Positions 24,649-62,262 of a stretch of 64,000 bases of DNA are shown piece by piece; position 1 is the stretch's first letter; each line of letters starts with the position of its first letter. Made by a program: the position numbers and the translations under genes. The stretch is from NCBI RefSeq assembly GCF_029227915.1, contig NC_079876.1, positions 26,573,828 through 26,637,827 of the forward strand, in the 5' to 3' direction. This stretch comes from Hydractinia symbiolongicarpus (taxonomy: Eukaryota > Cnidaria > Hydrozoa > Anthoathecata > Hydractiniidae). The notes beneath the pieces are model-generated. The model was not told the DNA's origin. It worked only from the letters and a program-made list of their open reading frames with translations, and made no database searches.

Positions 24649-24663
24649 ATATATTTAGAATGG

Positions 24664-25683: not shown

Positions 25684-25705
25684 GTATAATATATACAAAA
25701 AATAA

Positions 25706-26511: not shown

Positions 26512-26569
26512 GGGTTATACAGCAAGCTGTAATAATAAAAGTTATCTTAAGATGGTAGTTATACTAGGT

Positions 26570-33760: not shown

Positions 33761-33762
33761 AT

Positions 33763-38780: not shown

Positions 38781-38782
38781 AA

Positions 38783-40644: not shown

Positions 40645-41150
40645 AGGAAAATAATTTACAAAGAGGTGGCAAGCCACCGCAATGATGAACTCAACCTGTT
40701 AGGTCTTTGGAAATAAGCTAGAGGTTGTACTCCTCTAGAGAAAATGCCTCTAAAAGCACAATTCTCCATTTTTACAAGGAATTAATTAAAAAAAATATAA
40801 AAAAAATAAAAAGGACACAACACATTCGAAAAGATGATCAGAACTTTAACCAAGGGCAGGTAGGTTTCGACCCATATTTCTGAACCTACGAAGAGGTCTG
40901 CGGACGGTCATCAGCAGAAACTAAACATCCCTATCTTCCTAAAATTAACTTTTTTATTTTTTTATTTTTAATTTTTTTTTAACTGGGGTAATAAGTGAAG
41001 TCGTCACTGTCCAAAGACAAGTCCTAGTATGATCAAACCCCCTTGCTAACTTAATTTTTATTTGATTTTGTTTTATTTTTGACTGGGGTAATAAGTGGAG
41101 TCGTCACTCTCCAAAGACAAGACTGAGTGTAGTCAAGCCCCCTTGCTGAA
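40645..41150 (-). repeat. RT-USP 3' UTR attached to a USP ORF
   Basis: Runs from ATAATTTACAAAGAGGTGGC to CCCCCTTGCTG at 41150, directly abutting the end of the minus-strand USP ORF (stop at 41160). It includes two tandem units of the CTGGGGTAATAAGTG.AGTCGTCACT block; a third lies at 40573-40645. Because it follows USP in sense, it identifies the scattered repeat as the 3' UTR of the USP-bearing element. Confidence 0.8.
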
Positions 41151-42066
41151 TCATTCTGGTTAAAATATTCTTATCTCAGCTCTTCTAAAAAAAAAAACAT
41201 ATGACTCGTGACTGTTAATAAGGCGGTCATCACAGAAAATTACTGCTCTATCGTTGCAATGTATCCACCTGTGTACCATTTGGTCGAAGGCTATGGTTGT
41301 GTAGTGACCATTATTTAAGTTGCCGCAATGGTTGATAATAGCCCTTAATTGAAAATTTTTACGAAATTTCACTTTTCCATCTACGGTTAAAGGTATGGAA
41401 AGGGTACCAGGGTAAGCAGTAATACATGAGGCAATTTTTGACACAAGGCCGTTGGCGCTGGCACAACGTTTTAGCTGTAAAATGAGATGGGAACCGCACA
41501 ACACTACTTCTTTTTCAACTAGAGCAGTTTGATGAGCGTTGCAAACATGGCAGAAGTAGGCATTGGTGTCTGACAACTCCTCGCTTTCGAAGAAATTATC
41601 TAAGGAAGATTGTAACATAGGGTGCAGAGAAAGTTAGATGCATGGTGCTATAACTTCTGAGGAGCTGGTAATATGACATGAATTGCAAGTGGTTGATGTC
41701 TTGATGCCAATACTAAAAAGACTTCCAAGAAATGGAAAGTGTAATGACAGACCAGGTAGGAGATATTCAAGAACCTGGGGGACGTCGTGCTGAGCAAAGA
41801 TAGCTGAGATATGATGTTTCATAGCACGCAAAAAATGGGAGGGATCAACTGGACTTCTAGAAACAGCCAAACTTTGAAGAACACCTACAAATGCTTCGCT
41901 TAACTTTGAGGTTGTTTTGCTGACAGAAATGGCTTCTTTAACTTTTGGAAGGTTATAAAAACATTGTAAGATGGAGTTTGCATAACATGTGTTTCCCAAG
42001 TTTTTTAGACCGCTATTCCTAAAATCAGGGTTAGATGGCACTTGCTGACTCATTCTGGTTAAAATA
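41141..42066. repeat. 26-bp direct repeats flanking the USP ORF
   Basis: CTTGCTGA.TCATTCTGGTTAAAATAT occurs at about 41143-41167 and again at 42042-42066 with one difference. One copy covers the USP start codon (reverse strand), the other follows its stop. This may be a target duplication, a repeat left by recombination between tandem copies, or a template jump. Confidence 0.65.
41160..42053 (-). pseudogene. Ubiquitin-specific protease (C19), one stop codon
   Basis: Starts at 42053 (ATG; MSQQVPSNP). The Cys box is LKNLGNTCYANSILQCF (catalytic Cys about residue 23). A QQDVPQ-like helix (AQHDVPQVLEYLLPGL) follows, then the zinc-binding pairs CNSC and CHVC, the LQLKRCA strand, and the His box NNGHYTTIA with HCNDRAV (catalytic His, downstream Asp). 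The only damage seen is one TAA at 41634-41636 where CAA would fit. At about 297 residues it is a minimal USP catalytic core, fused to nothing here because the copy is cut at its 5' end. USP enzymes remove ubiquitin from proteins. Two other copies in the window place this domain downstream of reverse transcriptase and endonuclease parts, so this is part of a retrotransposon rather than a host gene. Confidence 0.9.
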
Positions 42067-43512: not shown

Positions 43513-43746
43513 CAATTAGGTAATCTGGATGGGTTATCATCCACTCCACCTCTTTTGAAATCGTTTCCAGTTTCTCTCTTTAAATATGAAGATTTTATGA
43601 AAGTTCTTGTCACTCCGCGAAATGACTCTTCCCCAGGTATCAATGGGATACCTTATAAAGTTTATAAAAAATGTAATAAAGTAAATACTGTTTTGTTTAA
43701 TGTTTTTAAGTCTTGTTTCAAAAATTGTGTTGTCCCTATTCAATGG
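43513..43746 (+). pseudogene. RT-REL-USP polyprotein, segment 1 (RT N-terminus)
   Basis: The frame is open from 43513. SLFKYEDFMKVLVTPRNDSS is followed by PGINGIPYKVYKKC, the conserved A-P-G-x-N-G-I-P-Y-K-V-Y start of the RT fingers in R2-like elements, and NCVVPIQW. It ends at the AATGG duplication where gypsy A entered; the next codon lies at 48955. Confidence 0.85.
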
Positions 43747-43854
43747 TGTATATTCGTTGATAACTGAATGTTATTCTCTGACCTAACATACTAAGATAAA
43801 ATACAAATCGGATCGGGTTAACTATTGGATAAATATAAACGGGATACATATACA
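43747..43854 (-). repeat. Gypsy A 3' LTR
   Basis: Starts TGTATATTCG and ends TACATATACA. Paired with 48842-48949. Confidence 0.93.
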
Positions 43855-43869
43855 CGTCCCTTCCTACTG

Positions 43870-43898
43870 TTTTTTTTTTTTTTTTTTTTTTTTTTTTT
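43870..43898. repeat. Poly(T) run inside gypsy A
   Basis: About 29 consecutive T, i.e. poly(A) on the element's coding strand, just upstream of its polypurine tract and 3' LTR. Confidence 0.9.
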
Positions 43899-44149
43899 GT
43901 CCTAGGAAAAATAAAAGAAACAAGTGAAGGAAAATATATAAATCCTTCATTCCTATTTCATAATAAAATCGTTGTATCGAGACGGTAACCGTCTCTCGTG
44001 TTGAGCGTCTTGGTAAGGGAGCAGGTGGAGGAGTTGATCCCTGCTCAGTTGAATGTTCATTGCTTTCATCGTTATTTGTGTCTGTTGTGTTCATTATTTC
44101 TTCCTGCTGTTCTTGTATATGTGGGGGAACAATCGTGTGTTCACCATTT

Positions 44150-45283
44150 TTAGTTTCTTTGACATTCAAAATCGGGAATAAGAACATCTTTGGTGCATTC
44201 TTGTGGAATTTTGCGAAGGAACCGGCGGTTTCTTAATGTTAACCTCCGGCTTCCATCCATAATAACCCTGTATTGTTTGTGAGGTAATGCTTCAGCAATG
44301 CAGCCAGTCTTGTCCCATTTATTGGGATGGTTGCTGTGTTGGTTTTGGATCGCGACCGAATCACCGACCTGTAGGGGTTGTAGCGAGTGTCGATCCCCCT
44401 TGTTTGACAGTTCAAATCGACGAGCGTGTGTCATTTCACGTGCGTCAGCAAGGTCAGACCACTCCCTTCTGAAAGTGATTGGTTGTGGTAGATGGTCAGG
44501 GAGGTTTCTTCCAAACAGTAACTCGGCTGGAGAAATTCCCATGTCTGGTGCAGGCGTGTTCCGGTGAAGTAGGAGTGCTTTGGTGACTGCTTCGGTATTG
44601 AGAGAACCAGTTGGACTGACGTTCGATGTGAGGATGCGTTTCATGGTTTTTACAGCTACCTCGGCTCTTCCGTTACTTTCCGGTAGGTATGCTGACGATA
44701 ATCTGTGACGTATTCCCCAGTTGTTGAGGAACGCGTTGAACTCGTTTGATTCGTATGGCGGACCTCCATCAGATGCAATTTCTTCTGGAATACCAAAGGT
44801 GCTGAAGTATCGACGCAGAATGTTTTTGACGGTTGCTGCATTCGATGAGGCTCGTAGACAGGCGACTTCGGTCCAACCAGAGAAGCGGTCAGTGTAAATC
44901 AGGTATCTTTGCCCTACCATATTAAAGATGTCCGTGACGGCTAGCTGAAACGGGTAGGACGGTTGAGGTGGCTGTTCGGCTGGTTCTTTCGATTGTGATG
45001 GGGCGGTCTCGTTGCATCTTCGGCAGTTGAGACGTTTGTTTTGAATGTCCGAGTTCATACCTGACCAAAAGAAACGTTGTCTAGCGTTGCTTTTCATTGA
45101 GGAAACTCCTTGGTGACCGACATGGAGCTCATCGAGAAGACGTTGTCGAAGAGATTTCGGTACGAGTGGTATCCCCTTGGAGAAGATTAAATCATTACTG
45201 GTATACAGGCGTTCACGTAGAGACCAGAACTCGCGTAGGTTTGGTGGAACTGATTCTTTATTCGTTGGGAATCCCTCTGGCAA
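44150..45283 (-). CDS. Gypsy A integrase
   Basis: 377 codons. The HHCC zinc domain is seen as HVGHQGVSS...CRRC near residues 54-90. The catalytic core holds VTDIF (first Asp), then IASDGGPPY (second Asp), then LPESNGRAEVAVKTMKR (Glu), the D-D-35-E layout. A C-terminal region with NKWDKTGCIAEALPHKQYRV and RRLTLRNRRFLRK resembles the GPY/F-type tail. It is separated from the RT frame by a shift at about 45290-45430. A further frame at 44187-43864 carries a Pro/Thr-rich tail (PPPAPLPRRSTRE) usual at the end of gypsy pol. Confidence 0.88.
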   Translation of the reverse strand: MPEGFPTNKESVPPNLREFWSLRERLYTSNDLIFSKGIPLVPKSLRQRLLDELHVGHQGVSSMKSNARQRFFWSGMNSDIQNKRLNCRRCNETAPSQSKEPAEQPPQPSYPFQLAVTDIFNMVGQRYLIYTDRFSGWTEVACLRASSNAATVKNILRRYFSTFGIPEEIASDGGPPYESNEFNAFLNNWGIRHRLSSAYLPESNGRAEVAVKTMKRILTSNVSPTGSLNTEAVTKALLLHRNTPAPDMGISPAELLFGRNLPDHLPQPITFRREWSDLADAREMTHARRFELSNKGDRHSLQPLQVGDSVAIQNQHSNHPNKWDKTGCIAEALPHKQYRVIMDGSRRLTLRNRRFLRKIPQECTKDVLIPDFECQRN

Positions 45284-45437
45284 TTTTTGTCCGTTTGTGC
45301 GTGTTTACGGATAGTTTCAAGACGAATAGTGTCAGTGGGTCGTTCGAGGGTAATTTCCTCTTCAATGTAGGCGATATGATTGTTGAGGTCAACAGATGCG
45401 ATGGGTTTCATTCGTGACGTTGCGTCAGACGCAGGAT

Positions 45438-47306
45438 TTAGTTCTCCAGGTATGGGATAACTTTGAAATTGTACATAAGCGTTTTTTCACGGAACTTAAA
45501 CACTCTAGGATTTTCGATTTTCTCTAGAGCGCGACTGTTGAAAATAGGAGCGAGGGGTTTATGGTCGACTGTTACGATTAATGAAGGGCAGCCTAGGACG
45601 AACATTCTGCAGCTGTGAAGTCCGAACATAAGGGCTAATGCTTCACCCTCGATAGGGGCGTATCGGCTTTCCGAGTCTCTCGTGAATTGGGAACCAGCGT
45701 AAATTGTTTTCCAATGATCGGGGCCACAGAAGACGTCTTCTTTATTTGGGCAGTGGCAATGTTTTTGAAACAGGGTGAAACCTATACCGGTTTTTGACCA
45801 ATCTGTTGATAACCAGGTCTGGCGGTTGAGCTGAAAAGATTTAACCCCGTCTTTGATAGCGTCAATGATTGCTACCTTCAATCGTTGGAATACAGTTTCT
45901 AGGGTATCGTCCCAATAAAATTTCTTACCCTTCTCCAATAATTCTCGAAAGGGTGCCATTACTGGGGCTTGGGCAAAGGCGTATGTAGTTTGGTTGATTA
46001 AGCCGAACCAGGAACGTATATCTTTAATGTTTTTCGGTGTTGGGAATTCTTGGATGGCTTGTAATATTCGAGCTGGTGGTCGGTAACCATCCTCAGTTAT
46101 ATCAAAACCCGCAAACTCTACAACGTCCCCAGCAAAGTGAAATTTTTCTGGATTAAAGATGATACCGTTTGTGGCACACAGGTTGATGTATCTAACGCAA
46201 TGCCAAAACGATTTGGTAATGTCATTATCCCAAAGGATGGAATCGTCAATACATCGAGCTACTCTAGGAAAGTCTTTGGTGATATCATCAAAGCGCTTGG
46301 TGTATCCGTCCCCGGAAGCATGGAAACCTTGAGGTGCGCGAAGGTATCTATAGCGTCCCCACTCGGTGATGAACGTTGTTGCATCACGGGCTTCTTCGGA
46401 CAAGGCGACACTGTGATATCCGTTCCAAGCGTCTAGGACGGTTTTCTTGACTCTTGGGGGTATGGCGCTGACAATATTGAACGGCGTTTGGGTGTGGTGC
46501 GTCTCTCGACGAGTAGCTTTATTCAGCTCCTGGAGGTCGACGGTTCGCCTGGGTGTTCCGTCCTTTTTGGGGACAACGACCATACGAGAACACCATGTTG
46601 TTGGGTGACCAGGAGGAATGGGTTCAATGATCCCAAGCGCCACGTCGGAATCGAGTTGGGATTTCACGGTGTATTTCCAATGATGTGGAATCGGGATTGG
46701 GGTGTGTATGGCCTTGGGTGGATGGTCTGGTAGGAACGATATGCGAAGAGGTTCACCAGCCATTACTTGGAGCTTCTGGTGTTTACATACATTAAACGCG
46801 CTACTGGCGTAATAGTCTTTAATCCATTTCTCAACATCCATTCGGTGGTCATTTGTTGGCGGAAATGGTAGTTTGTCAGGTAATGGCGGGCATTCTGTTC
46901 TAATCTTACAACCACACGGTGCGATGGAGGTGTCTGGTGTGCTGGGTTTAGTTATAGCGGCGTTAACGGAAGGATCGTTGGGAAACGAATCACGTAAAAT
47001 GTCTAAGCGTTTCAGGGCGGTTTGTGAGAGGTAGGTGGTGCTAACCCCCTCACATATGTATAATAGTTCTGTAGTTTCGCCGTTGGCTGTGATAATAACG
47101 ACGAGGAGGGTTCCGATAATTGTTAGTTTGTTATTACCCACTCCCCTCAGGCGATTTTTTGTAGGTAGAAGCCATCGCTTGGCTTGCGTAATGTTCTTGA
47201 GTATATGTTGTCTGGTAGTGCATATCTGTGCACCGGTGTCAGCAACAGCTTTCTCGTTGACTAGATGTGGGATTTCAGGCCAGTGTTCATTAGGCCGTAG
47301 GTTCAT
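45438..47306 (-). CDS. Gypsy A protease, reverse transcriptase and RNase H
   Basis: 622 codons. Protease motif ADTGAQICTTRQH is near residues 18-30. RT follows with WCSRMVVVPKKDGTPRRTVD, the motif A region VLDAWNGYHSVAL, and RCIDDSILWD, a C-I-D-D in place of the usual Y-x-D-D. The thumb/connection is FPTPKNIKDIRSWFGLINQ. RNase H has WLSTDWSKTGIGFTLF (Asp), a GEALALMFGL Glu helix and VTVDHKPL (Asp). The frame ends early at 45438, and the integrase continues after a shift. DWSKTGIG and GFHASGDGYTKRFDD are typical of this gypsy lineage in marine invertebrates. Confidence 0.92.
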   Translation of the reverse strand: MNLRPNEHWPEIPHLVNEKAVADTGAQICTTRQHILKNITQAKRWLLPTKNRLRGVGNNKLTIIGTLLVVIITANGETTELLYICEGVSTTYLSQTALKRLDILRDSFPNDPSVNAAITKPSTPDTSIAPCGCKIRTECPPLPDKLPFPPTNDHRMDVEKWIKDYYASSAFNVCKHQKLQVMAGEPLRISFLPDHPPKAIHTPIPIPHHWKYTVKSQLDSDVALGIIEPIPPGHPTTWCSRMVVVPKKDGTPRRTVDLQELNKATRRETHHTQTPFNIVSAIPPRVKKTVLDAWNGYHSVALSEEARDATTFITEWGRYRYLRAPQGFHASGDGYTKRFDDITKDFPRVARCIDDSILWDNDITKSFWHCVRYINLCATNGIIFNPEKFHFAGDVVEFAGFDITEDGYRPPARILQAIQEFPTPKNIKDIRSWFGLINQTTYAFAQAPVMAPFRELLEKGKKFYWDDTLETVFQRLKVAIIDAIKDGVKSFQLNRQTWLSTDWSKTGIGFTLFQKHCHCPNKEDVFCGPDHWKTIYAGSQFTRDSESRYAPIEGEALALMFGLHSCRMFVLGCPSLIVTVDHKPLAPIFNSRALEKIENPRVFKFREKTLMYNFKVIPYLEN

Positions 47307-47414
47307 ATAAGCTTTCTTGTTTATCTTAATTTCAATATCTAACGTAGGTGATTTTTCTGGTGTGCTTGGGATAAAACGATTATCGACTAGATCACCATGT
47401 GGGAGTCCATCTAG

Positions 47415-48447
47415 TCACAATGGGGATGCGGTATCTACTGCTGACAATAGGAATTCGGCAGATTCATCGGGTGGGACTTCAATCGCCGAGGTCTTGGGGC
47501 TACGGCAGACGTTAGCGAAGTGGTTCAACTTATTACAGTTTCTACAAGTCCTACCGAGGCAGGGCAAGTTGAACGACCCTTTGGGTGGAAGGGCTTTCCG
47601 CATCCGATGCAAGTTTTGTTGTTGTTGTTGGTGGTGGGTGGACGGGATGATGGCTTTGATTTCAAGGCAGATACGTCAGATGTCGACTGGTGTGGTGATT
47701 GAAATTCGGATGAAGCGCGTTCAGTTGATTCCAATGTCAAAAGACGGGTTGTAAGCTGGCTCAATGTTGTTAATATTTCCATTTCAGAAAGTACTTCGAT
47801 TGATGGGACGAATTTCGGAGACCGGCAATCAGCTGAGATCGAATCATTTCGTCAGCGTATGAAGGGTTGCATCCGTTGTCTCCACAGGTTCCAGAGCAAC
47901 TAAATCTACAAAGCATAGCTTGGGCTTTCAAACGGGAAATAAATGAGGTAACTGTTTCACCATCACTTTGTTTTAATTTGTAAAAGTGTTGGCGATAAAC
48001 TTCGGGGTGTACGGCTTTTACGGATACTGACTTGATGAATCCAAGCAAGTCATTCTCAGACGCAGTAAGCAGAGTGTCAGGGCCGATAAAATTAAACAAC
48101 ATCTCGTTTACCTTTAGAGAGCATGCAGCTCTGAGTTCGTTTCTGATGTCCTGCCCACTCGACAAGCCGGCCATCTCCTTATAGCGGCTCCATTCGTCCT
48201 TGAAGATGATCCAACGGTTATCGGTGGAATCGGCGTCAATGATGGGTCTCGTAAGCTTTGCACGTGATCTTCCTCCGACAGATGGGTTGGCGGCGGGTAG
48301 CAGGGACGGGAGTTGGGCGAACAGGGTGGTCATTTTTTTTTGCATCTCGAGGTGTTGCTGCTGCATTTGAATGATCATCTCGGCTTGACTAGGGGACGGA
48401 GCGGCGGGCAACGGGGCGGTGGGCGGTATGCTGTTATCTTGTGACAT
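47415..48447 (-). pseudogene. Gypsy A Gag with zinc knuckles, two frameshifts
   Basis: ATG at 48447 opens a frame to 47770: a Pro/Ala-rich start, a Gln/Met coiled-coil-like patch (QMQQQHLEMQKKM) and a capsid-like helical region (WIIFKDEWSRYKEMAGL). The next frame (47782-47525) has CIGCGKPFHPKGRSTC, and a third (47612-47415) has CRNCNKLNHFANVC, a standard C-x2-C-x4-H-x4-C knuckle. Two one-base shifts separate the pieces. Confidence 0.8.
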
Positions 48448-48841
48448 GGTCAAAACAAAATGGCGGTGTGACCACGGATGAAAATCGGATGAAAACGATT
48501 TAGAATGTTTTGTAACCCCTTTGCAACAATTATGAGCAAAAAAGATATGAAAAGTATGCTGAAGTGAGTTTGAGTGTTTTATACAATATACAAAGTTTCA
48601 ATAATTAATGGAATATTCAAGGTGCGTTCGATGTGACGCGAAGAGACTTCGTTTAGAAGATATAGAATGTTTGTTATGTTTTTGTTGTTGAACGTGTAAA
48701 CGAATGTGTTGAATGTCTGTTTCTGATGTGTTCAGTTTCTACTTACGATGTTTTTTTGTTGATAAGAGAGTGCTTGCTTGCGTGCAATCTCACCAATTGA
48801 TGGAAAAATATCCAGGAGTCGAAGGCTCACTTCTGACACCA

Positions 48842-48949
48842 TGTATATTCGTTGATAACTGAATGTTATTCTCTGACCTAACATACTAAGATAAAATACA
48901 AATCGGATCGGGTTAACTATCAGATAAATATAAACGAGATACATATACA
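48842..48949 (-). repeat. Gypsy A 5' LTR
   Basis: Paired with 43747-43854. The primer-binding site starts immediately inside (48841 leftward). Confidence 0.93.
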
Positions 48950-48954
48950 AATGG

Positions 48955-49245
48955 CGTTGTGCTCGTGAAGTTTATATTCCCAAATCAAAAACTCCTATGG
49001 AGTCTAATATTAAAGACTTTCGACCTATCGCATTATTAAATGTCGAAGGCAAGCTTTTATTTAGCCTTGTATCAAGGCGATTAGAAGCTCACATTATACA
49101 TAATAACAAATTCATTAACACTTCGGTTCAGAAGGGTTGTATGGAGAAAGTCCCAGGATGCTGGGAACACATGTCAATGGTTTGGTCTGCACTTAAAGAG
49201 GCCCGGGCCAAAAAATCACACCTTGCAAATATATGGCTGGATATT
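48955..49245 (+). pseudogene. RT-REL-USP polyprotein, segment 2 (RT fingers)
   Basis: Continues in frame from segment 1. REVYIPKSKTPMESNIKDF, RPIALLNVEGKLLFSLVSRRL (fingers, K-x-x-x-x-x-I/L-x-x-R region) and VQKGCMEKVPGCWEH (the Q-K-G-C motif of R2-like RT) lead to LANIWLDI, the first residues of RT motif A. It ends at 49245, where gypsy B entered. Confidence 0.88.
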
Positions 49246-49395
49246 TGTGATGATTCAAAACATATGTTTACTTTTCAGGTCCATCTTACGATCTCCTAAA
49301 CAATGACCTACAGATCCGTAACAAAATATAAAAGCAAAGGCGATGTCGGAAGGCATGTAAGCTCCGCGTGCGCGAGAGGCAAAACAGATATCACA
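49246..49395 (-). repeat. Gypsy B 3' LTR
   Basis: Pairs with 53842-53991. Confidence 0.95.
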
Positions 49396-49567
49396 TCTCT
49401 CCCAACTTAACAAAATGGTTCCTAGTAGAATTAAATATCAACATAAGACTATGTGCACCAGCAAAGCACAACAACTGGCTAGTTGAGGCATAGCGACGCT
49501 GCCCAACTACACCAAGCTACAAACATAAAAGTCTTGCAGTTCCAAAATAAAGTTCATGTGTTCGTAG

Positions 49568-52340
49568 TTACGCAGTAACGAAATCTTTGAAACGAGGTGG
49601 TGGTTTAACGTTTCGAGTACGTGTGTTTCTATTTGGAACGAAGAGTTCTTCATCATTCACCTCTTCCTCGCCATACGCAATGGTCTCGTCACTGGATGGG
49701 CTTTCTGTGACAACGGTATCACCAGATGACGTCAAGTCGGTTTCGTTCCCAGGGTCGTTTACAGTTGGTGGCAGGTCAAAATCGTCATCAGAGCTTTCTG
49801 TTGCAGAATCGGTTGTCACTGTCGGTTGTTGAAGATGTCGTTTATTTGACCGCTGGTTATTTCGCATGAAGTAGGGTTTGACGTGAGAGGAAGTGCGCAT
49901 CATAGTTTTTGTACCGTCTTCAATGAAAATTGCATTTCCTTTTACAGCAGTAACAGTACAAGGTTCATCGCGCCATCTAGGGGTAAATTTGTTGCGATGT
50001 GTTGACTGATTGGCCACGAGAACCTTTTGCCCAGGTTGGATGACATGACTGCGAGCATTGTTGCGTTTGTCTGCATATTTCGCGATTCTCTCTTTTTGGA
50101 TGCGGTTTTAACGACAGACATGGTGTTTTTGGAACTTGTGGTTGAGGCTGGTAGCTTGTCTTTAACCGGTCTGTTAAACAGAAGCTCTGCAGGAGTGGCA
50201 CCAGTGGTTGCGTGCGGTGTGGTACGGTATGCTAATAGGTAATTCTGGAGGGCAGTTCGCCAGTTCTGATTTTCAGCAATTGCAGCTTGGATGGTTTTCT
50301 TCAGATTTCTGTTGATCCTTTCAACCTCACCATTTGCCTCGGGTTGGTATGGGGTAACTTTGCGGTGCTCCACCCCAAATTCTTTCATCAAAGTAGCGAA
50401 ATCTGTATTGCTCCGGAATTGTGGTCCATTGTCGGTCACTATTATCTCTAGCGCACCATAACGACAAAACATTTTACGAAGTTTGTCAACGATATTAGCA
50501 GCATTGTAATAATCAATGCATACTAGCAGGTGTTCACCAGTAGGGAACGGACCGCAAAGGTCACAACCCAACATCAACCAAGCTGAATCAGGTATTTCTG
50601 TCATTACTACTGGAGTTTTGATTTGTGCACCAGCGGTGACTTGACATCCATGACATGACTTAATGTGGGCTTCAACCGAGGAGCCCATGCGTGGCCACCA
50701 TACTTTTTTCCGCAGACGTTGTTTTGTGCGTACTTGTCCCTGATGTCCTTCATGTACAATGGAGATGATGCTTTCTCGCAGGGTTGGCGGGATGACAATT
50801 TTGTTGGCAAACATGAGAATGTCATTGACAATGGATAGTTGCAAACGTGAGGGATAATACTCTTTAATAACATCCAATTTTGGAATGGTTCCAGATGCAA
50901 GGTGTTTCTTAATGAGGGCAATGGCAGGATCATCATTCTGTGCATCACGAATGTCTTTCTTTGGTATGGCAACTGGTAGTTGTTTACTTTGAATAAAGTT
51001 GACAAATTCCTCAGTCATTCGGTGCGATGGTGTATTGTCTTGCATCGGGTTTGACCGTGACAGGTAATCTGCTCCATTGGTTCTGCGTGGGTGATACTCA
51101 ACCTTGAATGCGTATGGCATGAGTCTCATAACCCAGCGTTCAATGCGTGGTGGAAGCTGTTTCCTACGAGGGGAGAGCATTGTCACTAGCGGCTTGTGGT
51201 CGGTTTTAACAACAAATTCTATACCATAAAGATAGATTCGAAACCGCTCTATTGCAAATAGGATAGCCAAGCACTCCTTTTCAATCTGGCTATATCTTGT
51301 TTCTGCATTTAGTAGTGAGCGACTGGCATATCCAATTGGTTTTAAGATACCATCTGGCTGACGTTGCATTATAACTGCGCCAAGCCCAACAGGGGATGCA
51401 TCAGTAAAGATTTCGGTGTATGCGTCAGGTTGATAGTAAGCAAGTGTCGCACTGGATAACAGCATGATCTTAAGATCATTGAACGCTTGTCGTTGCGCAT
51501 CACCCCAGCTCCATTTGGTGTCTTTGCTGAGTAGTTGACGCAATGGTGCAGTCACAGTTGAGAAGTGTGGTGAGAATTTGGAGCAGTATGTCACCATGCC
51601 GAGAAAGGATTGCAATTCTTTCACATTAGTTGGTGGTTTGAGGTCAGCTATAGCTTGTACTTTCCTCTCATCCGGTACAATTCCATCTTTTGACAACTTG
51701 TAACCCATGTAGATAAGCTCAGTCTTCAGAAACTCGCATTTCTTTAGGTTTACTGTGAGATTTTTCTCTCGGAGACGCTCAAATACGCATTGCATGCGAT
51801 CCAGTAGATCTTGATTACTAGTGCCACCAATAATGATATCATCTGAGATGTTACGTACTTTAGATAGTCCTGATAGTGCAAGTTCCAATTCTCGTTGATA
51901 CTGTTCAGCGGCAGAGGCGATTCCATATATCAGCCTTGTGAATCTGAATATACCACGGTGTGTTGCAAAGGCCGTAAGGTCTCTGCTAGCCTCGTCTAGA
52001 GCAATTTGGTGGTATCCCTTGTTCAGGTCCAGCTTTGTGAACACTGTGCACCCGTTGAACTCATGCAGCACTTCTTCCAGAGTTGGTATCTGATACGGTT
52101 CTCTTATGACTGCGGTGTTTGCAACACGCATGTCAACACACGTATGCCATCAGGTGTTTTCTTAGGTACGATTACAAGGGGATTAACCCATGATGGTGGT
52201 GATTCTATGGGCTCGATGACACCGAGTTCTAAGAGTTTTTCTAATTCCATGTCCAGTTGTTGCTGCATTAGGATCGGTAGACGTCTGGCTTTCTGTGCGA
52301 CTAGAGTTACCGTGGGATCTATTTGGATTTTGAGGTTGAC
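49568..52340 (-). CDS. Gypsy B RT, RNase H and integrase
   Basis: Main frame 52131-49942 (729 codons), with the RT N-terminal part upstream (52350-52140) in another frame after a shift near 52138. RT: FTKLDLNKGYHQI (motif A Asp), YGIASAAEQYQ and RNISDDIIIGG (DD). RNase H: EIFTDASPVGLGAV and VKTDHKPLVTM. Integrase: HEGHQGQVRTKQRLR...CHGC (HHCC), GCDLCGPFP (first Asp), VTDNGPQF (second Asp), PEANGEVERINRN (Glu). About 15 residues usually found after the first Asp (DYY to NAAN) are missing, an apparent in-frame deletion. The tail continues after a shift near 50000 in the frame ending at 49568, with a basic then acidic C-terminus. Confidence 0.92.
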
Positions 52341-52352
52341 ATCTTTCAGTTT

Positions 52353-53681
52353 TCAAAGGCCCTCAAACCTGTCACCATAATTGCAAAGCAGTTGTTTTAA
52401 TACACCGTCCTCGGAGGTAGAGATGTGGTTCACCTTGTCGTTCATGGTTCCACCTGGGCCAACTCGGAGTAGGTCCAATTTGCAAGCAGTTTCCACACCC
52501 AATATGGTGACAGAAGATTGTGGTACAACAACAAATCTGGTAGACACGACTTTCTCTCCAGCACCAACGACAACCCATATGCAGCCATTAACTTTGAGCG
52601 GTGACGACGCACCAAAAGCAAAAACTTTCTTGTGGTATGGAAGGATAGGTGACTTTAATTTTAGTGCACTAAGGGTGCTTTTGCTGATTACATTGATGGT
52701 ACTTCCACTGTCCAAGAGCACATTGACACGTTGTCCATCTACATCTACTGGGTACATGGAATTTTTATGGTTGGGACAGTTAGGGTCATTGTCGATGGCT
52801 AACACAAAATCATCATCCGAGGAGGAGGTATCAGCAGTGACATAGCGAACAGTTGCCTTAGTTGATCGACATACATTGCTAAAATGTCCCTGTATTCCGC
52901 ATTTGTGACAAGACTTTCCTTTTGTAACAATGCATTTGTCTGCACGATGATCTTTTTTACCACACCGGTAACAGTACGGTTGATTATTCTGCGACGGTCC
53001 TGTGTGAATTGTAGGTGGTGTTTTAGCAATTCCACTTTTTCTTAGACCGGTGCGTTTTATCTTTCTTGAGATAAAATTTACATCATCTTGCTCAGAATCT
53101 TCATCTTCTTGGTTGCGACTAAGGGTCGATTTGGTATACTGTGCCACTTGGTGATCAGCAGCTTCCATTATTGTTGAAATGTCGCATAGTTTTACCAAAG
53201 TTAACTCACTCTCCTTTAAAAGGCGTTTTCGGAGTTTACGTGATGTACATTTTTCAATAACTTGATCAACTATCTCGTCATCTATGTCTCTGAACTCACA
53301 TGTTTTCGCCAGTGTTCGCAAACGTGTGACATATTGTGAGATAGATTCTGACTCCTTTTGGGCACATGTACGAAATACATGACGTTCGTAGCGTTTGTTT
53401 TTCTTCGGAAGAAAATATGTATCTAATGCAGTACATGCTTTAACATAATCATTTTGGCCATCTGCGGCCTCTGGCTCAGGTAACGTGTCAAAAAGTTCAC
53501 GTAAATCTTCACCCGCACAGTGTAACAGAAGAGCTTTCTTCTGGGTGTTATCGGTAATACCTGCAGCTACTAAATACAGGTCGAACCCATTTCTCCACCT
53601 CTTCCAGCGGGTGCCTAGACTAGTAACGTCGCCATTTGTATCAAAGTGTGGAGGACAACTGATGTCCACTGCCCTAGCCAT
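52353..53681 (-). CDS. Gypsy B Gag and protease
   Basis: 442 codons from ATG at 53681. The Gag helical capsid region (RWKRWRNGFDLYLVAAGI, KNKRYERHVFRTCAQKESES) leads to two knuckles, CYRCGKKDHRADKC and CHKCGIQGHFSNVC, then a retropepsin with VNVLLDSGSTINVIS and VTILGVETACKL. The frame stops at a TGA (52353-52355) where Gly would be expected, just before the RT N-terminus. The stop is therefore probably a mutation rather than a designed gag/pol boundary, but programmed readthrough cannot be excluded. Confidence 0.9.
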   Translation of the reverse strand: MARAVDISCPPHFDTNGDVTSLGTRWKRWRNGFDLYLVAAGITDNTQKKALLLHCAGEDLRELFDTLPEPEAADGQNDYVKACTALDTYFLPKKNKRYERHVFRTCAQKESESISQYVTRLRTLAKTCEFRDIDDEIVDQVIEKCTSRKLRKRLLKESELTLVKLCDISTIMEAADHQVAQYTKSTLSRNQEDEDSEQDDVNFISRKIKRTGLRKSGIAKTPPTIHTGPSQNNQPYCYRCGKKDHRADKCIVTKGKSCHKCGIQGHFSNVCRSTKATVRYVTADTSSSDDDFVLAIDNDPNCPNHKNSMYPVDVDGQRVNVLLDSGSTINVISKSTLSALKLKSPILPYHKKVFAFGASSPLKVNGCIWVVVGAGEKVVSTRFVVVPQSSVTILGVETACKLDLLRVGPGGTMNDKVNHISTSEDGVLKQLLCNYGDRFEGL

Positions 53682-53841
53682 AATGTAAACACAACACGTC
53701 TCTGTGGCTAGCTCTCGAAGTGGGTAAGCAGAAATAATTGAATAATATCGTTCTAGATATCACAAAGGAAGTAGAAAAGTAAAATTGTCCTGTATGTAGG
53801 GAGATTCGTCAGGATTAACAAAGATAAACTCGCAGCGCCAG

Positions 53842-53991
53842 TGTGATGATTCAAAACATATGTTTACTTTCTAGGTCCATCTTACGATCTCCTAAACAAT
53901 GACCTACAGATCCGTAACAAAATATAAAAGCAAAGGCGATGTCGGAAGGCATGTAAGCTCCGCGTGCGCGAGAGGCAACACAGATATCACA
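53842..53991 (-). repeat. Gypsy B 5' LTR
   Basis: Pairs with 49246-49395. Confidence 0.95.
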
Positions 53992-53996
53992 ATATT

Positions 53997-55740
53997 GCAA
54001 ATGCGTATCCTTCAATTCCACACAAGCTTATATTTTTTGCACTGGAAAGGTATGGAGTCCCTCAGAGTTGGTATCATTCATTAAGTCATACTGCGTTGGT
54101 TTATATACCAAATCGTTTTCTTTGTCTGCACCAAGCAACTGGCACAAGCATATGCGAGGTATTTTTGCAGGTTGCACTCTTTCCATCATTTTGTTTCTTG
54201 CTGGTATAAACATTATTCTTGAATACACTATTGTGGCACCGGCCCCAAATTATATTACTTCTAAAAACGTGCCCCTTCCTTTAGTCAGAGCTTTTATGGA
54301 TGATATCAACCTAATGTCATCCTCTGCCTGTGGAGCTCAAAGTCTCCTTTCCAGGTGCGTCACTGCTTTAAAATGGGCTGGCATGAGTTTTTGCCCTCGT
54401 AAGTCAAGGAGCATAATCCTTATAAAAGGTAGATCTGTAAACTCCACACCTTTTTCTGTGTCTCACATCTCGTCACAAACCGACTTCTATTCATTCATCC
54501 CGTCAATCCATTCATCGCCAGTTCGTTTCCTCGGTCGCATTATTGATGGTACGATTTCAGATGCTAAAGCAATCGACGAGCTAGATAATAAGCTAATAAC
54601 CGGTCTTACAATCATAAACGGTTCGTGTTTCAAAGGGACCCAAAAACTATGGATTTTGCAAAACGTTCTAATTCGTCGAATCCAATGGCCAATTCTTATT
54701 TATGAAGTTCCAATATCTCGGGTTACAAGGCTGGAGCAGAAGATATCAACTTTCATTAGAAAATGGCTATCTCTGCACAATTCCACGTCAAATATTTGCC
54801 TATATAGCTCCTGCTCGCCTTGTCCAATGCCAATTAAGAGCTTGACGTCATTGCTTACATGCTCTAAAATAAGTGGTCATTTACTTTTACGCGATTCCAA
54901 AGATCCTCTTGTGTCTAACAGTGCACCTACTTTGAAAGTTGGCATGTGGAAAGTGGGCAACGCAGTAAGAACAGCAGAGGCAGAGGTGAAAATAAAGTCA
55001 GTCGTGTGAACTCCCCAGTATGGCAAAGCAGGCCTAGGGATCAACAAATCTTTCAAAATTCCGATTACAAAACAGTGCTATGCGTATCGTAAATTAATAT
55101 CGAACACAGCTAAAGATATTGATGAGGAAGGCAACATGGGTAGAGCATTGCAGTTGCAAGTGCAGGGTCAGTGGACGAGATGGGAAAATTACACAAAAAA
55201 CGATCTATCTTGGAAGTCCATTTTTGCCATGTCCCCACACTTGCTTTCCTTCTGTCTTGCTTCTACTTACGATGTTCTTCCCTCACCTAGCAATTTAAAG
55301 CGCTGGAACGTTTGTACTGAATCTGCTTGTTCCTTATGTTCCAAACAAGTATGTACAACAGCGCATGTTTTAGGCGCTTGCAAGGTTGCTCTATCACAAG
55401 GAAGGTTCACTTTCCGACACGATGCTGTGCTTCGCGGGCTCCTGTTAAGTCTAGAGCGTTTTTCATCTGAAGTTGTCCCGGAAACGAAAAAGCACCTTAA
55501 AGTGTCATTTGTAAAAGCAGGTAGCTATTCGTCCGCTAAAAGATCAAAACCAACTGGTCTATTCCACCATGCTAGTGACTGGGTGATGTTAGCAGATCTG
55601 AATGAAGGATTTGTGTTTCCTGGCCATATTGCAATCACATCCCTCAGGCCAGACATTGTAATATACTCAAATTGTTCTAAGCGCATCATCATTATTGAAC
55701 TTACTTGTCCTTGTGAGGAAAACATGGGATCCTGGCATTC
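53997..55740 (+). pseudogene. RT-REL-USP polyprotein, segment 3a: RT, CCHC, endonuclease
   Basis: Resumes motif A (ANAYPSIPHKLIFFALERYG), shifts frame near 54065, and is then open to 55786 except for one TGA at 55007-55009. RT: GIFAGCTLSIILFLAGINI (motif B region) and RAFMDDINLMSS (catalytic DD), then the thumb. A C-x2-C-x7-H-x4-C finger (CSLC...AHVLGAC) at about 55340-55385 precedes FRHDAVLRGL. The restriction-like endonuclease shows RPDIVIYSN and IIIIELTCPCEEN (P-D ... E-x-T) at 55649-55725. Its tail, after a one-base shift near 55760, is FAVEVGARGY. Same layout as R2/NeSL-type elements. Confidence 0.88.
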
Positions 55741-56790
55741 CACCAAGCTTTCCAAAATACTTCCCTTTGGTCGAGGTAATACGTAGCAACGGGTGGTTTC
55801 CGCATCTTTTTGCAGTAGAAGTGGGTGCTAGGGGCTACTCTTCAAGGTCTCTAACTTGCTGTCTAAAAAGCCTCGGTTTCGCTAGCAAATCTGCGTTTTT
55901 AACCGCCCACAAGCTTGGCGATATAAGCATGAAAGCATCCTTTTGCATTTGGATTGCACGAGACTCACCACATTGGTCACAAGATCTTACCCACTGCAGT
56001 TCGCCAACATTGCTACGACCAAAGGATAGTATACCTCATGAAAAATCCTCGTCTGTTACCAAATCCATTAAAAGTCCATCTTCAGCCATCTCTTACATGC
56101 CAAAACCCACGGAACACCATAACCTTAGCCAGGAACTTAAACAAAAGGTAAGCATCGTTCACGCTGGTTTGATAAACAAGGGGAACACATGCTACACAAA
56201 CTCCATCTTGCAAGCATTAACGGTTCTTCCAAGACTTTGGTCTCAATTACCATCAGAGTCCTCTTTGTCATCTCCTCTAGTAAAGTCTATAGTCCTAAAT
56301 ATGTCACTACTGAATCGTTCTCGTTCACCAATTGATCCTTCCAATTTCTTACGAGCACTGCAAAACAGAATGCATGCTCTTAACAATAACGCGTTTTATC
56401 ACAATCACCAACAAGATGTGCCCGAGATCCTTCAAGTTGTTTTTGACGAAATTATTGGATCTTCCCCTTTGGTTGACAATCTACTGTCTGTAACTGTGAC
56501 CACAACAACGTCATGCAACTCCTGTTGTTTCTCCACTTCCAGCGAACAAAAGAATTCAATTTTAATTTTACCAACGTGTAAGTCAATAACTCTTTTAACA
56601 AATTTTTACAACCTCAAGAACTTCTAGGTGACAACAAGTGGTTCTGCCCCCAGTGTTCATCGCATCAAGAGGCCACAATTGAAACTCAGATTTCCAATTG
56701 CGGCGACTTCCTTGTTGTACAATTGTTAAGATACCATCAGTAAATGGGTCTTCTTTTAAAGACAACAAGTTAGTCAATTGCGATGCATTT
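55695..56790 (+). pseudogene. Segment 3b: endonuclease tail fused to USP
   Basis: A single open frame (to 56625) starts in the endonuclease tail (NGWFPHLFAVEVGARGY). It passes through a Ser/Lys-rich linker of roughly 90 residues and enters the USP Cys box GLINKGNTCYTNSILQALTV at about 56170. The USP helix NHQQDVPEILQVVFDEIIG and the first zinc pair CNSC follow. After a one-base shift near 56590 the second zinc pair is readable (WFCPQC), then CGDFLVVQLLRY. It stops being USP-like at about 56790, where the 3' UTR tail begins, so the His box is deleted. Cys box and endonuclease tail in one uninterrupted ORF is the key evidence for a true fusion. Confidence 0.88.
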
Positions 56791-56890
56791 TCTCTAGAGG
56801 AGTACAACCTCTAGCTTATTTCCAAAGACCTAACAGGTTGAGTTCATCATTGTGGTGGCTTGCCACCTCTTTGTAAATTATTTTCTTATT
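56790..56890 (+). repeat. RT-USP 3' UTR tail, GGTGGCTTGCCACC subtype
   Basis: TCTCTAGAGGAGTACAACCTC to GGTGGCTTGCCACCTCTTTG and AAATTATTTTC, in the same orientation as the USP coding sequence. It is the reverse complement of the start of the 38.8 and 40.65 kb copies. It marks the 3' end of this element. Confidence 0.8.
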
Positions 56891-56905
56891 TTCTTCATAG
56901 GGTCC

Positions 56906-57224: not shown

Positions 57225-57782
57225 TTAGTCAGACGATTTTTACATTTTCACAAAAAACAACACATACACAGAAGATTTATTTAAATCAGATATTGCAACT
57301 CTAACAACTGCTTTTTCGTCACATCTTAACCATGAGCCACAGCTGCGATCTTTAATGAATGCCCAATAGTGACCTGCTCCTAGGGTGCCCGAATGATTAA
57401 TAGTGGCAGCAACGAATATTTGTTGTGAAATGATATGTCATCCGTTGGCTGAGAGCGAACTCTAAAAATGTCGTAATTTGAAGCAAGGAAGGTAACAAAT
57501 TTGTTATATTTTAGGGTTCTTCCATCAAGAAACGTAAACCTCTTCAGTGGGATAATTAGAATGTCTCCACACTGGGTGAAAACTGTTTCGCTTGTACTGT
57601 CTTGATAAGAAGACTACTGCGGGCAAAGCCACCTGTCATTTCCAGACAAATTTTTGGGCTGCAAAAAACAATTAATTGAACCTGTATTGCTGTTTGAGAT
57701 AGGGAGTGGCACAATAGGCATACTTTTCTCCCTGCTAGTTGATAAGAAGCATGCATTACATGACGTCATAGTGGTTATATTG
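57225..57782 (-). pseudogene. USP C-terminal fragment, inverted
   Basis: Read on the minus strand. TTMTSCNACFLSTS (first zinc pair), a WLCPQ second pair followed by a stop where Cys is expected, then CGDILIIPLKRFTFLDGR. After a shift near 57415 comes the His box HSGTLGAGHYWAFIKD with LRCDEKAVV (catalytic His and following Asp), ending near 57230. It supplies the part that the 56.1-kb copy lacks, but in the opposite orientation, and its Cys-box half is missing. It is diverged from the other copies. Confidence 0.8.
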
Positions 57783-58097
57783 TTGGTGATGAGTGCTTTT
57801 GGAAGACTGAAAGGACGATGGGGAATTTTAACAACAACAAAAAAAAAAATAGACCTTGATTTGAACATTGTACCACTGATTGTTATGACATGTTTCACTT
57901 TACATAATTTCTGTTAAATAAATACAACAGTTATAGATGAAGAGCTAGTCAAAGCTAACATTGAAAAACATAAGAATGATGAAAGCTTAACCAAAAACAT
58001 TCCAGACCCAATATACTCAAGCAATACTTCTGAAGGACACGAGATAAGGTTATTATTGACTGAATATATCAATGAAAACCTGCCGGTCTCATACTAA
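57780..58097 (+). pseudogene. PIF/Harbinger transposase, C-terminal end
   Basis: MSAFGRLKGRWGIL is the N/S-x-F-G-R-L-K-G-R-W/F motif carrying the basic helix after the last catalytic acid. It is followed by LDLNIVPLIVMTCFTLHNFC, the standard C-terminal helix, then DEELVKANIEKHKND and a stop near 58096. One in-frame stop (TAA after HNFC). The upstream half is replaced by the inverted USP fragment. Confidence 0.75.
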
Positions 58098-59434: not shown

Positions 59435-59604
59435 CAACCCGGCCCTGGCTCGGCAATGTGATATATGAACCGAGTCAACTCACCTTGTCTCGGGTTGGAA
59501 AAACCAGCGAACTCGCCTAGGCGGGTTGACTTACCTCATATAATTATGCCGAGTTGTTTAATTTTATCATGCTGAGCATGTGGCGAGCCAACCCGCCTCA
59601 TATA
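59435..59604. repeat. Palindrome-rich Harbinger terminal region
   Basis: Several inverted copies of CAACCCG(C/G)C and CGGGTTGG, plus CGCCTAGGCGGGTTGAC. TCAACCCGCC/GGCGGGTTGA type motifs face each other on either side of 59520. This is probably the terminal inverted repeat of the Harbinger element or of a related MITE; the exact ends and the 3-bp duplication were not resolved. Confidence 0.45.
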
Positions 59605-59797
59605 ATCAGGCTCTTTTACAACAGCCAACAAGATATCCCTGAAATTTTACAAGTTGTTATTGATAAGCCGATCGGATCTTTGTTGGATGACATTCTCTCG
59701 GTAACATTGACTACAACAACGTCCTGTATTTTTTGCTTTTATTCATGTTCAAGAACCCAAAAGGAGCCCATTTTAACTGTACCAACGCTTATGTCAA
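59605..59797 (+). pseudogene. USP middle fragment (chimeric junction)
   Basis: FYNSQQDIPEILQVVIDKPIG, LLDDILSVTLTTTTSC and EPILTVPT match the USP region at 56400-56570. At about 59797 it is joined in an open frame to the RT C-terminal region of a second copy. This is the reverse of the normal order. Confidence 0.75.
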
Positions 59798-60496
59798 TAT
59801 CGGACTCCTTACTGTCTCTGCCGCAAAGTTTATCTTCGTTTTGCATCGGCGCAACCTATGACACGCTTCCTTCTCCTACAAATCTTGTCAGGTGGGGAAT
59901 TCAAAATAACAAAAGTTGCACCCTATGTAAAAAACCCTCTTGTAACGTGTCCCACCTTTTAGGCGCTTGTAAATTAGGCCTTTCACAAGGTAGATTTACG
60001 TACCGCCACGATACTGTTCTACGTGTGTTAGTGACAGCCATTAAGAAGTTCTTATCTGATTATGAGCCAGCAAAACCATCTAGACGTCATAAAATATGCT
60101 TTTTTCCAGCTGGTACACGTCTTCCCACCAAAAAGCGTTCAAAAATTCAGGGAATCCTTCACCTGGCCTCTGATTGGAGATTATTGTCAGACTTAGATTC
60201 GACCTTAATAGTACCACCTTATGTTGCTGTAACTTCGTCCGGACATACTTTTAACTTCTGCCATGACCAAAACTGTAATTATCCTTGAATTAACTTGCCC
60301 ATGCGAAGAAAACTTGGAGACTTGGCATGGAGTTAAGGTTGATAAATACTCGTCACTTTATTCCGTCATGAGATTAAACAATTGGTCTGTGCATTTCTTT
60401 GCTGTTGAAGTAGGAGTAGGGGATTTTGTTCCGAAACAGTTAGAATCTGCCTCCGTCGCCTCGGCTTTTCTAACATGTCTGTGCGTTCCACTCTGA
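59798..60496 (+). pseudogene. Second RT-REL-USP copy: CCHC and endonuclease
   Basis: SFCIGATYDTLPSPTNLVRW, then the CCHC finger CTLC...SHLLGAC, FTYRHDTVLRVL and, after a frame change near 60260, KTVIILELTCPCEEN of the endonuclease and FFAVEVGVGDF. Each motif has a counterpart in the first copy (55220-55860) with clear divergence, so the two copies are separate insertions. Between 60497 and 60700 a decayed linker (SFYIWLSRDS near 60535) matches the linker of copy 1. Confidence 0.85.
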
Positions 60497-60702
60497 AATC
60501 TCTTACTGAGTCATCTATGCGATAGTCGTTTTACATCTGGCTATCTCGAGATTCTTTGTCTTAGATTCATCCTGGTAGGGATCCACAGCATACCACTCAA
60601 TTGATACCAACTGTTTCAAAGAATTTATCCAAGTCATAAGCAACTCTGACCACTAGCTTTAAGGACACGAATCCGCAGGGCATAACAAAGAGCTCCACTA
60701 CC

Positions 60703-61615
60703 TTGCCTGCACAGGAATCACTAGGCAGCAACAGCGGCTTGTTAAATTTAGGCAACACATGTTACATCAATTCCATCTTGCAATGTTTGTATGTGTTACC
60801 CGCAGTCGCCACAGCCATCTCTGCAAATGATTCCAATATGGCGATAGGCAAAAGTTTTGTGAGTATTCTACGCAAACTATCCTCCTCCTAGGTTCCAGTA
60901 AACAGTTCTTCATTTCTAAATGCATTAAAAGGCCACGTTTCTTATGCAAGGGGTGCTGCTTTTAATCCGTTTTCTCAGCAAGATGCCCTAGAGATTCTTG
61001 AGTATCTCATACCAGAGTTATCCTTAGTCTTTCCTTGCTTTGGTAGATTATTCCACACTCGTGTGAAAATCTACACTACTTGCAGCGCTTGCAATAATAT
61101 TAGCACCTCTGAGCAAGTAAGTCCATTTCTTCAACTTCCCTTGACATCGACTGTACAATCTTCAATAGATAACTTTTTGGAGAGCGAAGAATTGTCAGGT
61201 GTCCACTCGTACTTCTGTCACTACTGCAACAGTTGAAAAGAGGTCGCAGAGTGCAGTTCAATTTTGGTTCTGCAATTAAAGCGCTTTGCCTATAACTAAG
61301 GTCTTGTGTCTAAGGTTTGTTCTCCTGTCACATCTTACCCGGGCACTGTTTCCATACCTATCACTGTAGACAGTGAAGTCTCTGGTCGCAAGCACTACAA
61401 CTAAGGGCTATAATTAACCACTCTAGAAATTTGAACAATGGCCATTACACTACTGTTACTTATAACCAAGTGGATGGTAAGTGGTTCCATTGCAACGACA
61501 GAGCAGTGGTCCCTTGCAAACAAAGCTTGCTCAATGGTGTACAACCTTACATGCTTTTCCTTGAAGAGCTTAGGTAGATTGCAGTCAGCGCCACAACTTC
61601 CGGCTTATGTCAGCA
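60703..61615 (+). pseudogene. USP of the second copy
   Basis: SGLLNLGNTCYINSILQCLYVLP (Cys box) starts near 60730. A stop at 60889-60891 is followed by a readable continuation: SQQDALEILEYLIPEL, the zinc pairs CSAC and CHYC, VLQLKRFAY, and a His-box region near 61430-61500 (NNGHYTTV-like, then HCNDRAVV) in a shifted frame. Several stops and shifts. The C-terminal residues run directly into the 3' UTR at 61611. It follows the endonuclease of the same copy on the same strand, repeating the order of the 43.5-56.9 kb element. Confidence 0.85.
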
Positions 61616-62262
61616 AGGGGGTTTGACTATTCTTATTTTTTTATTTTATTTTTTTATATATTTTTTTTTGTAGTTTTGTCTTTGGAGAGGGACGACTCCA
61701 CTTATTACCCCAGTCAAAATAAAAGCGAAAAACAAAAAATTACGCCAGCAAGTGGGTTTGACTGTACCAGGTCCTATCTTTGGAGAGTGACGACTCCACT
61801 TATTACCCCAGTCAAAAATAAAAAAACAAAAAAACAAAATAAAAATTATGTCAGCAAGGGGGTTTGACTACACTGGTTTTATCTTTGGATAGTGACGACT
61901 TCACTTCTTACCCCAGTCAGAGTAGGACATGTAAAGTTATGGATGAAAGAAAGGTCTAGTTCCTGCTGAAGACTGTTCGCAGACCTCTTTTGAGGTGACT
62001 CAGCTAGACATTTTGGGTACCTTGGTTCAGGAATGAGTCGAAACACTTGTACCCTTTACAGAAGTCCTGTCCTACTCTCTCTCTCTCTCTCTCTGTGTTT
62101 GTTCAATTTTTGTGCCAATTATCTCCTTGGAAAACGGAAGAATTGTGTTCCTTTATATGAGCATATTCTTTAGATGAGCAAAACCTTTAGAATTTAAATT
62201 TTAAGACTTAACTGGTCGAGTTTATCATTGTGCGTGCACTTTGTAATTTTCATTCTTTACTG
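61611..62262 (+). repeat. RT-USP 3' UTR, longest copy, with tandem units
   Basis: Three tandem blocks, each starting CAGCAAG.GGGTTTGACT and containing GGAGAGTGACGACTCCACTT and ATTACCCCAGTCA, begin at 61611, 61746 and 61852. After them come the GTACC...GGTTCAGGAATGAGTCG block, a CT-microsatellite, the CCTTGGAAAACGGAAGAATT block and the terminal GTGCGTGCACTTTGTAATTTTCAT. No ORF. It is the reference copy for the scattered repeats at 15.9, 33.8, 38.8, 40.0 and 40.7 kb. Confidence 0.85.

Follow-up and report, generated by a model that had tools for sequence, protein, structure and literature searches.

Can a retrotransposon that lacks long terminal repeats (LTRs) carry its own deubiquitinase? The question is raised by a 64,000-nucleotide stretch of the Hydractinia symbiolongicarpus genome (NC_079876.1, positions 26573828-26637827; hereafter the window). 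A first reading of the letters alone (the sequence-only reading) had claimed that one open frame runs there from the tail of an R2-type restriction-like endonuclease (REL) into a ubiquitin-specific protease (USP; family C19). Together with a search of the 480.9 Mb assembly (76 contigs), the window very probably documents a family of non-LTR retrotransposons of the restriction-like endonuclease (RLE; R2-type) class. The predicted polyprotein consists of a reverse transcriptase (RT), a CCHC/REL region, a variable linker and a complete C-terminal USP, followed by a 3' untranslated region (3'UTR), and the fusion appears to be old and maintained. Our high confidence is in what the fusion is and in its having been maintained, and extends to no single mechanism; the evidence comes from one genome. 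At least five subfamilies, which we name F1-F5 for this analysis, have the REL followed by the USP; F1 is very young and includes intact copies.

These intact copies came to light in a genome search with the PF00443 profile, which gave 150 matches (149 of 1015 candidates scored); 20 stretches were fetched. In six of the 20, all F1 (L009, L010, L011, L013, L014 and L016), RT, CCHC/REL and complete USP are joined in one uninterrupted 1426-codon frame, with the first Met at 6. The other five differ from L009 at 7-9 of 4278 bases and at 1-6 residues, a near-identity that suggests recent movement. The Pfam comparison proposed with the sequence-only reading found RVT_1 and UCH together in the L009 frame, RVT_1 at residues 339-609 (E=8.2e-16) and UCH at 1137-1423 (E=5e-32, 111.9 bits, 254/254 profile positions, above the curated cut-off), as well as zf-RVT at 828-892 (E=5.3e-5, under cut-off). 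The same frame matches the structures of R2 RTs (9nl2, E=2.2e-19; 9dou, 8.4e-19) and of USPs (USP8, 8xpn, 5e-22; USP36 over 1137-1425, 2.5e-16), and the USP fold of the C-terminal domain is putative, by sequence homology to these solved USPs. A CxLCxKxxCxxxHxLGAC-like CCHC stretch lies between RT and endonuclease in both window copies and in the L009 and L018 frames. A putative PD-(D/E)XK-like endonuclease motif, PD..ELT..K, is present in the F1, F2, F3 and F5 rows, with the K altered in L027. The RT reading covers F1 and F2.

Linkage of the two domains extends across the genome. With the endonuclease of window copy 1 as the query, at least 152 matches were found (147 of 800 candidates scored), of which 150 rows were used; 35 of these, ending before query residue 240, were set aside, and the 115 that reach the C-terminal end were counted. 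They were compared with a list of USPs pooled from the genome matches, to which the USP of window copy 1 was added by hand. For 85 of the 115, a USP lies on the same strand no more than 800 bp downstream, compared with 1/115 upstream on the same strand and 0/115 on the opposite strand either downstream or upstream at the same distance. Of the 35 rows set aside, 14 are followed by a listed USP at no more than 800 bp (99/150 for all rows). The PF00443 list alone places a USP within 2.5 kb of 56 of the 115. The median gap between REL and USP is 367 bp over the 86 matches with a listed USP within 2.5 kb, one of which has it at 2.4 kb. For the remaining 29 matches, 1.46 kb each was examined by tblastn: 23 have a same-strand USP, in four cases just 15-24 residues long (L044, L045, L054 and L062), and six have none, although one of the six has a USP on the other strand. 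In total, 108 of 115 C-terminally complete REL matches have a same-strand USP within about 1.4 kb downstream. This count applies to a query from a USP-bearing subfamily and to the best candidates scored, some of the places being duplicates of one another, and distant relatives that lack the USP could escape it.

In the window, copy 1 belongs to F2, with 98-99% identity to locus L020 in three blocks (43516-43749, 48950-49245 and 53992-56781, the last at 98.2%). Between the blocks lie two LTR retroelements with genes on the opposite strand, bounded by direct repeats at 43747-43854 and 48842-48949 (97% identity) and at 49246-49395 and 53842-53991 (98% identity). The third block begins with an RT region (53992-55009) that matches the R2 structures 9nl3 and 9dou at E=0.002-0.003. 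The frame 55662-56627 does hold the linker and the Cys box, as first claimed, with a UCH match of 46.9 bits against a cut-off of 23.9. However, it opens only after a frame shift inside the endonuclease, because the CCHC motif and the PD..E core sit in the preceding frame, 55010-55786. Likewise, the first of the two zinc pairs described for this frame is there, but the second (FCPQC) lies in a separate frame, 56582-56743. The USP breaks off at 56781 with the His box absent, and a 3' end of the F3 type starts there; this terminus is also 99% and 96% identical to 38781-38889 and 40641-40750, respectively. The junction of F2 copy 1 with an F3-type terminus is, by this comparison, one of ends of different subfamilies exchanged or adjoining. 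A second, diverged copy was correctly read as having the same order of REL and USP, in broken frames; its endonuclease is 45% and 58% identical to that of copy 1 at the amino acid level (two pieces).

Between subfamilies, USP identity is 0.32-0.56 (pairs computed, excluding F1-F4 and F3-F5), and between F1 and F2 it is 0.45, compared with 0.70 for RT and 0.61 for REL. The proportion of nonsynonymous differences (pN) in the USP is 0.27-0.50 between subfamilies, with a saturated synonymous proportion (pS) of 0.755-0.882; the linker, with pN 0.38-0.60, is conserved less than the USP in every pair compared. The F1-F5 rows compared in the alignment retain the motif Cys, His and Asn/Asp together with both CxxC pairs; we presume the roles of these residues from the familiar USP motifs. 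Within subfamilies, the ratio of nonsynonymous to synonymous rates (dN/dS) of the USP is 0.32 in F3 and 0.39 in F4, on few changes. As raw fractions of codons with no null, differences at the three codon positions between copies 2 and 4 are 0.46/0.32/0.66, 0.38/0.25/0.58 and 0.39/0.13/0.63 in three USP pieces, and between copies 1 and 2 they are 0.46/0.30/0.65 in the main REL piece. Trees of REL and of USP both split F3 and F4 from F1, F2 and F5; the order within F1/F2/F5 stays loose, with two USP forks supported at 94 and 89. The simplest reading of these trees is a single USP capture before the subfamilies split, followed by joint inheritance. The proposed phylogeny against host USPs yielded a tree with one host USP on a very long branch and did not find the donor gene. 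In a comparison with eight host-like USP stretches, element USPs reached no higher than about 39% identity in alignments of 40 or more residues. Relatives were also searched for in viral contigs and prokaryote genomes, and none was confirmed.

Several observations weigh against an old, maintained fusion, or against parts of its description. Intact full frames occur in F1 alone; F2 has near-full frames (L018, 1422 codons; L020, 1379 codons) whose true starts are not established. The REL assignment rests on motif, position and the weak zf-RVT match, because a REL profile matched no PDB chain up to E=10. Predicted structures of the copy 4 USP (mean pLDDT, the predicted local confidence score, of 45) and of the REL were unusable. 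Looking upstream instead, 61 of the 150 PF00443 matches have a REL within 2.5 kb among the matches listed; many copies are 5'-truncated, and some PF00443 matches are host USP genes. Single copies have changes in or beside the motifs (GNIC and ADHY in L020, QQH in L025). Between two F2 copies the dN/dS of the USP is 0.95, again on few changes, which leaves the comparison suggested at the outset divided. There is no excess at the third codon position in the USP middle between copies 1 and 2 (0.61/0.49/0.61), and the His-box piece of copies 3 and 4 gives 0.46/0.48/0.63.

One objection is that host USP genes or retrogenes merely lie beside retrotransposon remnants. Nested elements crowd the window and its own copies are broken, as that would have it. 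Yet the REL and the USP lie in order on one strand in 108/115 cases, and the RT-REL copies do not consistently end before the USP, the pattern that the sequence-only reading had named as the mark of mere neighbours. Six frames join all domains, so that an assembly error would be needed in all six. In the host-like USP stretches, element USPs do not exceed the identity given above. Given also the UCH E-values and the near-zero control orientations, we agree with the first reading that the arrangement is not due to chance, and rate the probability of coincidence as close to nil. It is also very unlikely that the USP was captured once and then carried along as a passenger of no use to the element. 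Its lower conservation relative to RT and REL between F1 and F2, and the dN/dS close to 1 for the F2 pair, would fit such a history. However, the motif residues have been kept across five subfamilies despite saturated synonymous divergence, the linker is conserved less than the USP, and the frame is open in young copies.

If the USP is used, its role must be sought in the life cycle of the element. USPs are deubiquitinases, and RLE elements integrate through target-primed reverse transcription. Tethered C-terminally beside the nuclease, the USP could act in cis, stripping ubiquitin off the polyprotein to which it belongs or off the element's ribonucleoprotein (RNP), which would prolong the life of either between translation and integration. 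Such protection in cis seems the likeliest role for the USP, although we hold it tentatively, at somewhat below an even chance. We regard as evenly balanced the fuller history in which the RLE lineage acquired an entire USP before the five subfamilies diverged, its active site was kept under selection and retrotransposition came to depend on deubiquitination. A processing protease might be expected at the end of a polyprotein, as the USP is, but USPs cut after ubiquitin C-termini, and this role is hardly credible here. The sole ubiquitin-like Pfam match, to APG12, was rejected as an internal substrate, being under cut-off and overlapping the region aligned to R2 structures. The USP could instead act where the element integrates, on histones, chromatin or repair factors near the nick made by the REL. 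In favour of this are the USP's location next to the endonuclease and the suggestion, in the available part of PMC2836005, that Ulp1 and OTU domains of transposases may act on repair; position alone cannot tell it from RNP protection, and we consider it unlikely, if still a serious candidate. The USP might also act in trans, countering a host pathway that restricts the element through ubiquitin, by analogy with viral and Helitron deubiquitinases (PMC9741609, in excerpt). The covalent place of the USP in the RT-REL polyprotein favours action in cis, and we judge the trans role improbable.

Known mobile elements share parts of this layout. As in the R2 superclade, HERO and other RLE elements, the RT aligns to R2 structures, a CCHC motif and a putative restriction-like endonuclease follow the RT in a single open reading frame (the R2 domain layout is described in portions of PMC3636483 and PMC7650587), and copies are 5'-truncated; unlike them, the present family has a USP of about 290 amino acids after the REL. 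It also differs from the R2 clade proper in that no zinc-finger, Myb or other Pfam match was found before residue 339 of L009 (E up to 0.1), and in that the F1 flanks differ, with no single site recognizable by eye. Such seemingly non-specific insertion fits the HERO clade, many elements of which are called non-specific in sections of PMC4640811. According to the same sections, nematode NeSL elements and Utopia-1_TSP encode a Ulp1-like protease at the N-terminus. These are likewise RLE-type non-LTR elements with an acquired cysteine protease of the ubiquitin/SUMO world, but theirs is Ulp1-like, N-terminal and found in nematodes, whereas here it is a C-terminal USP in a hydrozoan; no N-terminal Ulp1-like Pfam match was found in L009 or L018, where the protease is the C-terminal UCH. 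Helitrons and Helentrons may also encode a deubiquitinase-type domain, either VTD, with reported activity, or OTU (excerpts of PMC9741609), but they are rolling-circle DNA elements with other protease families. In Ginger1 transposons that encode OTU or Ulp1, the protease is C-terminal, and a Trichomonas transposase is accompanied by Peptidase C19 (extracts of PMC2836005), but both are DNA transposons. The terms UCH, USP and PF00443 are absent from PMC12062965, as are ubiquitin, HERO and protease from PMC12220107.

The sequence-only reading knew of no USP module in a non-LTR element. Among the best-ranked matches of our literature search, with Repbase and most subscription journals outside it, mobile elements are reported with Ulp1, OTU and VTD proteases and with one C19 domain beside a DNA transposase, and none is a non-LTR retrotransposon with a USP; priority is not thereby established. 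For non-LTR elements, both the protease family (USP) and its position (behind the endonuclease) are without a counterpart in the literature searched. Ubiquitin-family proteases recur in unrelated mobile elements for reasons that are unsettled, and a young, intact RT-REL-USP element makes the question directly testable, by one catalytic-site change in one protein. According to the accessible part of PMC10411563, Hydractinia symbiolongicarpus is a laboratory model. If the USP is selected and retrotransposition depends on it, ubiquitin control of a LINE-type RNP would be strong enough to select a built-in antidote. As a separate observation, a frame for an OTU-like cysteine protease (PF02338 E=4.8e-4, slightly under cut-off) lies in the window beside a hAT-type transposase (DUF4371, Dimer_Tnp_hAT), at 6622-7146 and 7919-9685; this may be a further mobile element that encodes a deubiquitinase-like domain.

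The boundaries are those of a non-LTR element. At F1 and F2 loci, the USP stop leads into the 3'UTR and then an element end, past which different loci no longer share flanking sequence; among the F1 flanks printed, no common target is apparent by eye, a comparison that did not include rDNA. The family has no LTRs and shares a common 3' end with 5'-truncated copies. The 3'UTR-only copies at 34028-33751 and 39235-38781 are as expected of 5' truncation. A short hairpin, differing in sequence but similar in place, was seen by inspection near the end of each of the five subfamilies (L009, L020, L026, L024 and L028; one locus for F5); the DNA alignment of the 3' ends was poor and was not used for covariation of the hairpins. 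In seven F1 loci extending to the 5' end (L009, L010, L011, L013, L014, L016 and L019), 112 to 2450 bp of F1 3' sequence stands in front. Tandem F1 copies occur in L011 and L013, and three pairs of USP matches lie about 5.37 kb apart, as tandem copies would. These 5' pieces suggest either tandem transcripts or that the 3'UTR holds a promoter. HeT-A telomeric elements carry 5' tags, which the pieces recall, as they do 5'-truncated insertions of tandem transcripts.

Table. Copies and fragments of the RT-REL-USP family, and elements inserted in them, in the window
Feature	Position	Strand	Evidence
Copy 1 (F2), start of RT region, first coding block	43516..43749	+	97.9% identity to L020 1735-1968
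LTR retroelement inserted in copy 1, outside fusion	43747..48949	-	RT/RNaseH Pfam matches
Copy 1 RT, second block	48950..49245	+	99.0% identity to L020 1961-2256
Second LTR retroelement inserted in copy 1, outside fusion	49246..53991	-	RT, RNaseH, integrase Pfam matches
Copy 1 RT palm to thumb, FMDD motif	53992..55009	+	RVT_1 E=2.3e-5, under curated cut-off
Copy 1 CCHC zinc motif and restriction-like endonuclease core (RPD..ELT..K)	55010..55786	+	zf-RVT E=1.1e-4, under cut-off
Copy 1 frame: endonuclease tail, linker, USP N-terminal half with Cys box	55662..56627	+	UCH PF00443 E=3.5e-12
Copy 1 USP middle, second zinc pair, shifted frame, USP end at 56781	56582..56781	+	sequence comparison
F3-type 3' terminal sequence adjoining broken copy 1 USP	56782..56891	+	97% to 3' ends of F3 loci L026, L027
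Copy 2 (F4) CCHC and restriction-like endonuclease	59839..60493	+	sequence comparison, broken frames
Copy 2 (F4) USP, Cys box to His box, broken frame	60640..61574	+	UCH matches
Copy 2 3'UTR with ~100-bp repeats, 3' end common to other places	61577..62257	+	repeats, end comparison
Isolated USP fragment, QQD to zinc region	59560..59799	+	58% amino acid identity to copy 1 over 65 residues; 51% to L020
Copy 3, F5/F2-like USP C-terminal half	57246..57814	-	sequence comparison
Copy 4 (F3) USP, one frame with single internal TAA, no REL ahead	41169..42059	-	UCH E=8.7e-30 (stop read as X)
Copy 4 F3-type 3'UTR and 3' end	40641..41160	-	sequence comparison
Copy 5, F1-like USP C-terminus	40354..40521	-	80% amino acid identity to L009 residues 1371-1426
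3'UTR-only, 5'-truncated copy	33751..34028	-	91.6% to 61975-62257
3'UTR-only, 5'-truncated copy	38781..39235	-	82.7% to 40647-41059; 3' end 99% to 56782-56890
F2-like 3'UTR fragment	28376..28634	-	76-77% to L018 and L020

The remaining copies in the window are collected in the table. The USP of copy 2 matches UCH at the Cys box (E=2.8e-8), in the middle (0.039, under cut-off) and at the His box (2.7e-10), and the copy 4 USP is 88% identical to that of L026. A repeat of about 30 bp flanking the copy 4 USP was considered as a target-site duplication and rejected; it matches the start of the F3 3'UTR, and therefore an internal rearrangement is more likely. A further LINE-type RT frame lies at 20618-22981 (RVT_1 E=3e-37), without a UCH or zf-RVT match. 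Elsewhere in the window, at 24649-26514, a capsid-like frame recognized by eye, with no Pfam match, lies on the strand opposite to a Parvovirus NS1-like helicase piece (Parvo_NS1 E=5e-5, over cut-off), and this region is probably an endogenous densovirus-like element.

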